Shown: piece after piece, positions 19,591 to 22,218 of the stretch
Layout: every line of letters starts with the position of its first letter
Position numbering within the stretch: position 1 is the stretch's first letter
NCBI RefSeq assembly: GCF_900115245.1
Contig: NZ_FOVT01000013.1
Location: 1 to 64,000, forward strand
Source of the DNA: Mesorhizobium sp. NFR06
GTDB taxonomy: Bacteria; Pseudomonadota; Alphaproteobacteria; Rhizobiales; Rhizobiaceae
Length of the DNA stretch: 64,000 nt
Reading direction: 5' to 3'
The notes under the pieces: generated by a model
Database searches by the model: none
Seen by the model: only the letters and a program-made list of their open reading frames with translations
What the model was told of the DNA's origin: nothing
Made by a program: the position numbers and the translations under genes

Positions 19591-20745
19591 ATGAAGCAGC
19601 ACCAGGCCGTTGATGGAACCATGGCGGCAGGTCGTGTCGACTGCAGCCCGGCCAGCTTCGTGATCGAGGGTCGGCTGGCGCGCGTCGGGGGGCAGAACAT
19701 CCTGTTCGGCTCGTCCGGGCAGGCCATCTTCGCCGTCAACGATACCGCTGCCGACATCTGGTGCTCTGTGGAAGAAGGCATGCCGCCGGCGGCCATTGCG
19801 TTCGAGATTGCGCGCGGCGGCATCGATAGGCATGAGGCAAATAGGTATGTCGAGGCAGCTCTCGAGGACTGGGAACGACTGGGTCTGATACGGCCCCGTG
19901 CGCCTTTGTCTCCGCCGTCGGCATACGAGCATGTGAGTCGGGTGGTCGCCATTGCTGGCCTTCATATACGCATCGCCTATCCGGCGGCCTGGGCCTTTCC
20001 GGCCATCGCCGTATTTCGGCATCTCGAAGTTCAGACAGATGCTGCAGATATTCTGCTACATCTGGCCGAGCACCGCGGACGGATTCATCTGTTCCGGGAT
20101 TCCGACTGGATCCAGTCCTGCTCGCCCGACGAACTTCCCGTCATGCTGAAAGGGCACTTGCTTACCGAGGTTCTCGAGCACGGCGCCTATGAACTTGCCG
20201 TCCATGCGGCTGCGCTTCTCGGAAGAGAACGCGTCGTGCTCCTCTGCGGAAATCCGGGCGCGGGCAAGACGACGTTGACCATGGCATTGGTCCATGCAGG
20301 CTTCGGCTTCGCCGCGGACGACGTGACGCTTTTGGACTCGAAAGGGCGGTGCGTGGGTCTTCCGTTTGCTCCCGCTGTCAAGGCGGGAGCATGGCCGCTT
20401 CTGGCCGAATACTGCGCCGATCTCCATGCCATTCCGATCTTTCGCCGTCCGGATCGCCGGCGCGTGCGGTTTGCCGTGCCGAGGACGTTCGCACCGCATT
20501 CTCCTCATTCCGTCGGCAGTGTGATCCTGCTCCGTCGAGGTCACGACGCGAAAGCCTGCCTGGCGCCGGTCGATCCGGCGAGCGCTTTGCGCGGCCTGCT
20601 CAATGGCGCTTTTGCGCCCGGCAGGGAAGTAACCGGAGCCGCGTTTGATACGCTGACCAAAATCATCGGATCGGCGCAGGCCTACTGCCTGACCTATTCC
20701 AGACTCGACGATGCGGTGGAGCTGATCGCGAAGGCATGCCGATGA
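19591..20745 (+). CDS. PqqD-like domain fused to an HPr-kinase-like domain
   Basis: A 384-residue protein. Residues about 25-105 have a PqqD-like winged-helix pattern (ARVGGQNILFGSSGQAIFAVNDTAADIW, then a C-terminal helix ending GLIRP). PqqD-like domains bind precursor peptides in ribosomal-peptide pathways. Residues about 195-384 resemble the HPr kinase fold: ELAVHAAALLGRERVVLLCGNPGAGKTT (Walker A at 220-228), GFAADDVTLLD (Walker-B-like acidic region at about 242-249), then FAPAVKAGAWPLL and a C-terminal lid region. Related separate proteins are described, as I recall, as the HPr-rel-A system, and HprK-like kinases tailor some lasso peptides. It overlaps the nucleotidyltransferase gene by 10 bp. 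The alternative ATG at 19621 is possible. Confidence 0.82.
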   Translation: MKQHQAVDGTMAAGRVDCSPASFVIEGRLARVGGQNILFGSSGQAIFAVNDTAADIWCSVEEGMPPAAIAFEIARGGIDRHEANRYVEAALEDWERLGLIRPRAPLSPPSAYEHVSRVVAIAGLHIRIAYPAAWAFPAIAVFRHLEVQTDAADILLHLAEHRGRIHLFRDSDWIQSCSPDELPVMLKGHLLTEVLEHGAYELAVHAAALLGRERVVLLCGNPGAGKTTLTMALVHAGFGFAADDVTLLDSKGRCVGLPFAPAVKAGAWPLLAEYCADLHAIPIFRRPDRRRVRFAVPRTFAPHSPHSVGSVILLRRGHDAKACLAPVDPASALRGLLNGAFAPGREVTGAAFDTLTKIIGSAQAYCLTYSRLDDAVELIAKACR

Positions 20746-21737
20746 TGCGCGCCGGCGCCACGCTCGATGCGTTGATCGCGGGACTTCGCGGCCGGCCACC
20801 CGCCGGCGCCAACTGGCAGGCGGTGATCGCGCTTGCGAACCATACTCTGCTCACACCCGCCTTGTTCTCCTCCCTCGCGCATGCCGGCCAGATCCACGGC
20901 CTGCCGCACGACGTGCGCGAGTACCTTCGGTTCGTTCACGACTGCAACCGGGAACGGAACCTGCGCTTGCGCGCCCAGCTGGCTGAAGCCGTCGCAGCGC
21001 TGAACCGGCGCGAGATCGTTCCGCTCCTGCTCAAGGGGGCCATACCCTTGTTTCTTTCCGTCCCTGAGCGCGTCCCCAGCAGGATGACCAGTGACCTCGA
21101 TTTGGCTGTGGAGCCGACCGAAGAGGCGACCGCCCAAGCCTGCCTGGAAGCGCTTGGCTACGCGCCGGTGGCGAGCGGTCGGGGCTTAGCCCGCCGGCAG
21201 GACGCTGGAATGCTGGAATTGCGGGCCAGTCAGGCAAGCGCATTCGGCCCGTCCAGTCCCGTCGAAAGAAATGGTCTGCGCGTGAAGATTCCTCCAGCAC
21301 ATTCTCGCGCCCTGCACTGGATGATGCATGACCTTCTCAAGGAGGGGGACTACTGGCGCGGACGGATCGATCTCAGGCACCTTCATGATCTGGCGCAGTT
21401 GGCCGAAAGCGACGACATGGATTGGACGGCTTTGCGGGCAGCCATGTCGGATCGAGGCGCGCGCAATGCGCTCGACACCCAACTCCTGGCCTTGCACCAT
21501 TTCTTCGGGACGAGGATCCCGACGAGCTGCGCACCGCGCCCGATGGTTCGCTTCCAGCACTGGAGACGGGTTTTCACGGCGAGACATCCCTTCCTCGGCG
21601 CCCCGTTGCGTTTGGCCGCCAATCTGGCGTGGGGCACATGGCGGTTCTCGCGTGCCGACGATTTGGCGCGACGCGGTCCGTCCGATCTCGGACGTCGCGT
21701 TATTCGCACTCTTTTTTTCTCTCGCGCGAAAGTCTAA
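20736..21737 (+). CDS. NTP_transf_5-like nucleotidyltransferase of the peptide operon
   Basis: A 333-residue protein of the uncharacterised nucleotidyltransferase group (PF14907 type). The signature is REIVPLLLKGAIPLFL (residues 93-107), then RMTSDLDLAVEPTEEA (117-131), where the DLD acidic pair is the expected metal site, and YWRGRIDLRHLHDLAQLAE further on. The C-terminal third is helical and basic. Members of this group accompany HprK-like and PqqD-like proteins in several peptide clusters, where they are thought to transfer a nucleotide or act on the kinase product. The start codon lies inside the upstream gene, so translation is probably coupled. A broken inverted copy of this gene lies at 91-539. 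Confidence 0.82.
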   Translation: MPMMRAGATLDALIAGLRGRPPAGANWQAVIALANHTLLTPALFSSLAHAGQIHGLPHDVREYLRFVHDCNRERNLRLRAQLAEAVAALNRREIVPLLLKGAIPLFLSVPERVPSRMTSDLDLAVEPTEEATAQACLEALGYAPVASGRGLARRQDAGMLELRASQASAFGPSSPVERNGLRVKIPPAHSRALHWMMHDLLKEGDYWRGRIDLRHLHDLAQLAESDDMDWTALRAAMSDRGARNALDTQLLALHHFFGTRIPTSCAPRPMVRFQHWRRVFTARHPFLGAPLRLAANLAWGTWRFSRADDLARRGPSDLGRRVIRTLFFSRAKV

Positions 21738-21807
21738 GCCTTTTGACGTACTGGTTTATTTTTCTGCAATCTATAAAGTAATTTCGCCAGAAATAGAGAG
21801 GTTTGAC

Positions 21808-22050
21808 ATGGCGATCGAAAGTAAATCTTCGGAAGGGAAACCGGAGATTCTCGTTTCGGAAGCTCAGGCGCGTCGTGACTTTCTCATGAAGGCGGGACGC
21901 TTCGCGGCTGTCACCCCGCCAGCCATCACGCTTCTGCTCGGCACGAGCTTGAACTCCAGGGCAATCGCCAGATCGGGCGGATGGCCGGGCAACGGCTGGG
22001 GGGACAAGAACCACATTCACATCGGCCCTCCCGGCCAAACCGGAAAATAG
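21808..22050 (+). CDS. 80-residue peptide with a Tat-like leader, candidate precursor
   Basis: Starts at ATG 21808 with AGAGAGG seven bases upstream. The first 21 residues are polar. ARRDFLMKAGRF at 21-32 matches the twin-arginine motif RRxFLK, followed by a hydrophobic stretch (AAVTPPAITLLLGTSL) and an AIA-type cleavage site near residue 54. The predicted mature part is only about 26 residues and very unusual: RSGGWPGNGWGDKNHIHIGP, then PGQTGK, with two Trp, three His-Ile-like positions and many Gly. It lies 70 bp after the nucleotidyltransferase gene and 26 bp before a strong terminator, so it is the last gene of that transcript. Role unknown; it could be the substrate of the PqqD-HprK protein or a small secreted partner. 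Confidence 0.7.
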   Translation: MAIESKSSEGKPEILVSEAQARRDFLMKAGRFAAVTPPAITLLLGTSLNSRAIARSGGWPGNGWGDKNHIHIGPPGQTGK

Positions 22051-22076
22051 TGGTTTTGTTCGACAGCATTTTGAAG

Positions 22077-22112
22077 GCCCGGGCCGCTCGCCTGAGCAGC
22101 CTGGGCTTTTTT
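22077..22112 (+). terminator. Rho-independent terminator of the peptide operon
   Basis: The stem is GCCC-GGC-GCTC paired with GAGC-GCC-GGGC, with single-base bulges and a GCCT loop, followed by six T residues at 22107-22112. It lies 26 bp after the peptide stop codon. Confidence 0.85.
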
Positions 22113-22218
22113 GCTGGGCGGTGATCTGGCCCACCAGCATGCGCGGGCCTTCGACCATTCCGAGCATCTCGGGAGCCGGCCACCATGACATGTGGCCGAG
22201 GTGTGCTTGGAATTCTCC

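Follow-up and report, generated by a model that had tools for sequence, protein, structure and literature searches.

Several described systems share parts with the locus considered here. Lasso peptides can be tailored at a C-terminal serine by an HprK-like kinase, as in paeninodin, or by such a kinase together with a nucleotidyltransferase, as in pseudomycoidin (PMC8498205). In the DUF2063/DUF2282 RRE systems, the precursor carries a Sec-type export signal (PMC12710340). A third relative is the HPr-rel-A system, whose kinase is the HprK-related kinase A (TIGR04352) and for which NCBIfam gives PqqD as a companion. A nucleotidyltransferase is a further companion in that system.

Sequence comparison and structure prediction show, in Mesorhizobium sp. 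NFR06, genetic coupling between a conserved peptide with a putative twin-arginine leader, a kinase fusion (RRE-HprK), and a nucleotidyltransferase of the PF14907 family. This trio is met again across many proteobacteria with its gene order shuffled, which points to a widespread, apparently undescribed peptide-modification system. A search of the open-access literature, with closed-access work outside its scope, found no description of the trio and no described RRE system with a twin-arginine-leader precursor. We favour, with a probability of roughly two in three, a RiPP-like cassette in which the RRE domain would bind the leader, the kinase would phosphorylate the peptide, the transferase would extend the modification, and the Tat pathway would export the product to an extracellular role.

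Organization of the locus

The window, by which we mean the whole 64,000-nucleotide stretch of DNA that was analysed, is the start of contig C13 in a 6.16-Mb genome. Its features of interest are the following.

19591–20745, + strand: PqqD(RRE)-HprK fusion gene, 384 aa; PqqD-like RRE domain at about residues 23–102 and HprK-like kinase at about residues 104–384 (AF2 pLDDT 88.9)
20736–21737, + strand: PF14907 nucleotidyltransferase gene, 333 aa, with a 10-bp overlap with the fusion gene
21808–22050, + strand: precursor-like peptide gene, 80 aa, after a 70-bp gap
22073–22113, + strand: intrinsic terminator, a hairpin followed by T6, 3' of the peptide gene (-28.4 kcal/mol, z -3.5)
74–560, - strand: PF14907 nucleotidyltransferase remnant (pseudogene), a second copy, sharing its frame with a beta-helix ORF at the left contig end

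The preliminary description had proposed three coupled genes, overlapping by 10 bp and then separated by 70 bp, with a strong terminator at the end of the operon; the coordinates and the hairpin agree with it on each point, and its reading of the locus as a peptide-modification unit is supported as far as sequence evidence goes. The peptide start is the ATG at 21808, around which a longer open frame begins at 21328. The trio neighbours an exopolysaccharide set that encodes Wza, a WecB/TagA-type transferase, Wzc, an O-antigen ligase, a flippase, and a WcaJ-type transferase, and the convergent gene beside it encodes a surface protein with cadherin/Ig repeats. In Mesorhizobium M2E, an intact peptide copy adjoins Wza at the place matching the remnant at 74–560 (L077 8971–9240), and the near-identical enzyme-linked copy is frameshifted (L103 8971–9258).

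The kinase fusion and the nucleotidyltransferase

The kinase and PqqD parts had been described as fused, and this is indeed so: a single 384-aa reading frame gives both domains in the AF2 model, an RRE like that of lasso B1 proteins and a kinase like HprK/P. In Foldseek searches with this model, the RRE part matches two structures of lasso B1 in complex with a leader, 6jx3_B (TMt 0.85, rmsd 1.7) and 5v1v (TMt 0.82), and the kinase part matches HprK/P and PEPCK. A profile of the fusion compared with the PDB finds TfuB1 (8.8e-9), TbiB1 (1.2e-8), and HprK (2.9e-6). By both routes the RRE domain looked for in a RiPP pathway is present, and it is predicted to bind a leader. With TIGR04352, for which the cut-off is 200 bits, the HprK part reaches 67.2; the PqqD part, the fold of which matches a PqqD-like RRE, reaches 21.3 bits with PF05402 (gathering cut-off 23.4). 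As the scores lie below the cut-offs, both parts are called diverged relatives of these families on the basis of sequence, and their folds were settled via structure prediction.

The kinase retains a Walker A motif (GNPGAGKT), His205, Asp243-Asp244, and Lys264; H205, G223, G225, K226, T228, D243, and K264 are invariant among 30–32 diverged homologues. The transferase is a Pol-beta-type member of PF14907 (NTP_transf_5; Pfam 1.9e-25, 90.4 bits, cut-off 31.2) with invariant K100-G101, R116, and D120-x-D122. Since the catalytic residues are invariant in both, the two enzymes look catalytically competent.

The AF2 model of the transferase (pLDDT 86.4) gives weak Foldseek matches to ANT(2'')-Ia, LnuA, MenT, and FKRP. 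The matches to MenT1 and TglT (E 0.007–0.1), together with one to AbiEii by Pfam (0.002), lend something to a reading in which the two enzymes form a toxin-antitoxin-like pair, comparable to MenT/TglT and the serine kinase TakA, the peptide then serving as regulator or passenger. This is very improbable, as the residue before D120 varies (S, T, A, I, R, L) and there is no conserved serine for the kinase to target, an RRE domain is part of the kinase, a conserved and putatively exported third peptide is foreign to such modules, and neither the transferase nor the peptides match any PADLOC model. A defence system was also considered and rejected for want of a useful PADLOC match.

The peptide family

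The leader of the 80-aa peptide reads RRDFLMKAGRFAAVTPP...AIARS. Its regions are the following.

Residues 1–21: variable start
Residues 22–54: conserved twin-arginine leader with a TPP motif and AxA
Residue 56: Ser56
After Ser56: variable Gly/Trp/His/Pro tail

All 109 distinct members share R22, R23, and F25, and Ser56 (107/109), Ala52 (107/109), and Ala54 (106/109) are nearly invariant. Ser56 stands at a fixed distance from the arginines, the segment from RR to Ser56 being always 35 residues long. The twin-arginine-like leader, hydrophobic stretch, and AIA first noticed in the single peptide are hence features of the family, in which a hydrophobic stretch and then AxA come after R22, R23, and F25, and the length of the putative mature tail, about 26 aa, agrees as well. 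The genome collection was scanned with the pattern G[RK]FA[AV][VL]TPP, so that conservation at those positions is partly selected, and R22, R23, and S56 lie outside the pattern. Some tails are rich in GW/H/P, as in the window, and others in Cys; some are poly-His, of the GNNGWGNG type, or amphipathic (LLEWLERFLSKFF), and some members have hardly any tail. Ser56 is the sole Ser/Thr after AxA in 11 members, of which 10 have the canonical leader.

The peptide frame is under purifying selection, with a pooled dN/dS of 0.076 for the leader and 0.235 for the tail, versus 1.6–1.9 in the two shifted frames of the same alignment. Because of these low in-frame values and of relatives at 187 loci, the peptide is, by sequence, a genuine gene and no chance ORF. 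A leader-grammar pattern, composed post hoc, has a single match in the window, at the peptide itself, and 7 in reversed sequence totalling 2393 kb. No Pfam or NCBIfam model matches the peptide.

The 187 loci belong to named genomes of Rhizobiales and one rhodobacterial genus, and the 79 that were fetched come from Mesorhizobium, Ensifer/Sinorhizobium, Rhizobium, Pseudaminobacter, Microvirga, Bradyrhizobium, Tardiphaga, Rhodopseudomonas, Afipia, Pararhizobium, and Amaricoccus. Strong homologues (E < 1e-8) occur in 14 of 61 genomes sampled from the source genus, up to four per genome, and also on replicons of Sinorhizobium, Ensifer, and Rhizobium. A fourth candidate in the genome studied here (contig C29, E 0.37) was rejected as a family member, its match being weak.

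Some members have unusual arrangements. Three tandem peptides with Cys-rich tails (CEPCTPCD-type) occur in another alphaproteobacterium (L190 7430–8488, - strand). Immediately upstream of a kinase, three tandem tail-less peptides end in AVASA, ALAY, and AAAAS (L250 2685–3364, + strand). In one peptide the leader is exactly duplicated, RRDFLKKAG...AIAKS appearing twice (L116 8749–9198, + strand).

Linkage of the peptide to the enzymes

That the peptide lies next to the PqqD-HprK/nucleotidyltransferase pair is not peculiar to this genome. The distance from the peptide gene to one of the two enzyme genes is 0–222 bp in 40 of the 79 fetched loci, and in the source genus all 13 genomes with the fusion carry the peptide, versus 1 of 48 without it (p 2e-12). 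Of 249 genomes sampled across the order, 7 have the peptide, and each of these has a full-length kinase. With this linkage and the purifying selection on the frame, the peptide assignment survives both refuting tests that the preliminary description had set. The order is PqqDHprK-NTase-pep in the window, pep-NTase-PqqDHprK in Rhizobium, and NTase-pep-PqqDHprK in Microvirga; the genes are divergent in Bradyrhizobium, Tardiphaga, and Rhodopseudomonas and convergent in locus L059. Thus gene order and orientation are shuffled between lineages and the trio is nonetheless kept together. A conserved precursor leader with a variable tail, encoded beside the enzymes, is a further feature found here that is looked for in RiPP pathways.

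It could be reasoned instead that the peptide is an ordinary small Tat-exported protein associated with the surface or with exopolysaccharide, and that the enzymes act on another product of the locus, such as a sugar, a lipid carrier, or a protein. Exopolysaccharide genes surround 26 of the 40 linked loci versus 3 of the 39 unlinked copies, and the same leader is borne by these many unlinked copies, for which no common neighbour genes were found. However, the linkage survives rearrangement and persists outside such surroundings, the trio of Sinorhizobium meliloti being next to hisD and infA and outside any exopolysaccharide locus; the RRE domain on the kinase is most like lasso B1; and nearly all unlinked copies in the source genus are in enzyme-bearing genomes. 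We consider this explanation unlikely. In the favoured RiPP-like reading, unlinked or paralogous peptides that share the leader are probably served in trans by the enzyme pair.

Exopolysaccharide as the defining context was rejected on account of the S. meliloti trio and the unlinked copies; because that trio adjoins hisD/infA, the link is frequent but not general. The linked exopolysaccharide loci include one with a sulfotransferase (L083) and one with the sulfate-activating APS kinase and ATP sulfurylase (L110), hinting that the polysaccharide there is sulfated.

Full-length kinases of the order-wide sample that lacked a peptide profile match were inspected afterwards for nearby small ORFs, one genome (G069) being left out of the partner assessment where the sequence ends near the kinase gene. 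In each of three diverged-kinase loci (G832, G793, G732), a neighbouring small ORF shows RR and a hydrophobic stretch and ends in small residues; in G732 there are three in tandem. G084, G095, and G461 likewise have an adjacent small RR-leader ORF. An RR-leader protein is directly upstream in 11 of 14 HPr-rel-A (TIGR04352) loci inspected. From these adjacent partners in diverged and HPr-rel-A loci, the enzyme pair seems in general to have a small RR-leader partner, the RR motifs at distant loci having been found by eye and pattern and so weighing less than the profile-based counts. One diverged homologue (L195/G094) counts against the favoured reading, since the peptide is absent beside the kinase and three are elsewhere in the genome. 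In another genome (G804, L253), HprK-like genes have as neighbours repeated proteins of the type RRQVLKxVMIGGxATAxxMPSKWVKPVVNAVIPPAHAAAS, which make up a further RR-leader family paired with HprK.

The leader as an export signal

All three marks of a Tat signal, a twin-arginine motif, a hydrophobic stretch, and AxA, are present in the peptide, from which we infer that it is a Tat export substrate. The genome encodes TatC. The Pfam TAT_signal model gives a weak match in 1 of 22 peptide members. A Pro-Pro pair inside the h-region is unusual for a Tat leader, which counts against our reading.

It is possible to take the leader as a RiPP leader with an RR-F-L and an AxA that merely resemble those of a Tat signal, the peptide being modified and its product staying inside or leaving otherwise. 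The invariance of TPP within the h-region, the replacement of RR by KR in distant members (L244, L254), and peptides that stop at AxA (L250) are in keeping with this. Nevertheless it is quite unlikely, given that R22, R23, and F25 are invariant in 109 members with a hydrophobic stretch and AxA behind them, that proteins with a textbook RR signal occupy this position in distant HPr-rel-A relatives, and that TatC is present.

Proposed pathway

In the RiPP-like cassette that we favour, the RRE domain, judging from its fold, would grip the leader G-[RK]-F-A-x-x-T-P-P-x-x-T-x-L-L, probably via G[RK]FAxxTPP, and bring the surroundings of AxA-x-Ser within reach of the fused kinase. The kinase, by analogy with its family, would then phosphorylate a hydroxyl close to where the leader ends. 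The strongest candidate is Ser56, as it is retained while all after it changes and is the sole Ser/Thr left in 11 members. The transferase could next add a phospho-sugar or nucleotidyl group onto the phosphate, as in pseudomycoidin (PMC8498205). Judging from the motif and the presence of TatC, the product, folded or unfolded, would then be exported by Tat and cleaved after AxA, to act extracellularly, often with the exopolysaccharide made by the surrounding genes.

Alternatively, Ser56 could owe its conservation to RRE binding or to processing by signal peptidase. In the tail-less peptides of L250 just a terminal Ser, Ala, or Tyr remains, which counts against a scheme centred on Ser56; these peptides suggest that the tail is dispensable and that the modified residue may be C-terminal.

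A bolder version is offered tentatively and is, in our judgement, doubtful. Here the peptides would form a proteobacteria-wide Tat-exported class in which, in the cytoplasm, the RRE-kinase fusion phosphorylates the invariant Ser56 and the PF14907 transferase then phosphoglycosylates or nucleotidylates it, one enzyme pair would serve several leader-sharing peptides in trans, and the products would link or organise surface exopolysaccharide.

With the proposed cassette, orphan proteobacterial HprK/PqqD/PF14907 gene pairs gain a candidate substrate with a named candidate site, Ser56, and a RiPP-like pathway is put forward in which the recognition leader doubles as a twin-arginine export signal. 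Because most of the peptide genes are unannotated or hypothetical, the family has escaped notice. S. meliloti, a genetically tractable symbiont, also has the trio.

Comparison with known systems

The HPr-rel-A system has a related kinase and an RR-leader protein. In contrast, the kinase in the window falls far under the family cut-off (67 vs 200 bits) and has the PqqD part fused in, and the HPr-rel-A partner proteins are larger (about 130–290 aa) and differ in sequence from the window peptide. The DUF2063/DUF2282 systems likewise combine an RRE with a precursor that carries an export signal (PMC12710340), but their enzymes are others, the signal is Sec instead of twin-arginine, and the peptides are unrelated.

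Membership among the lasso peptides was rejected, the lasso cyclase (PF00733) and B2 protease (PF13471) being absent from contig C13; the unit had been predicted to do without both. In the genome, PF00733 matches are confined to contigs C1, C2, and C10, and PF13471 matches to C1, at another locus. The region at about 361–393 kb of C1 (L246, L247, L252) has a probable lasso locus, with PF00733 and PF13471 as neighbours at 361–363 kb, and 30 kb further along a second PF13471 with an HprK-like ORF and a transferase-like ORF.

The trio differs from lasso pathways in that the RRE is fused to the kinase, the leader is of the twin-arginine kind, and the tail is without lasso features. With the phosphorylated and phosphoglycosylated lasso peptides it shares an HprK-like kinase, a nucleotidyltransferase, a B1-like RRE, and a ribosomal peptide (PMC8498205). 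By analogy, the trio appears to resemble the tailoring half of the phosphorylated lasso pathways.
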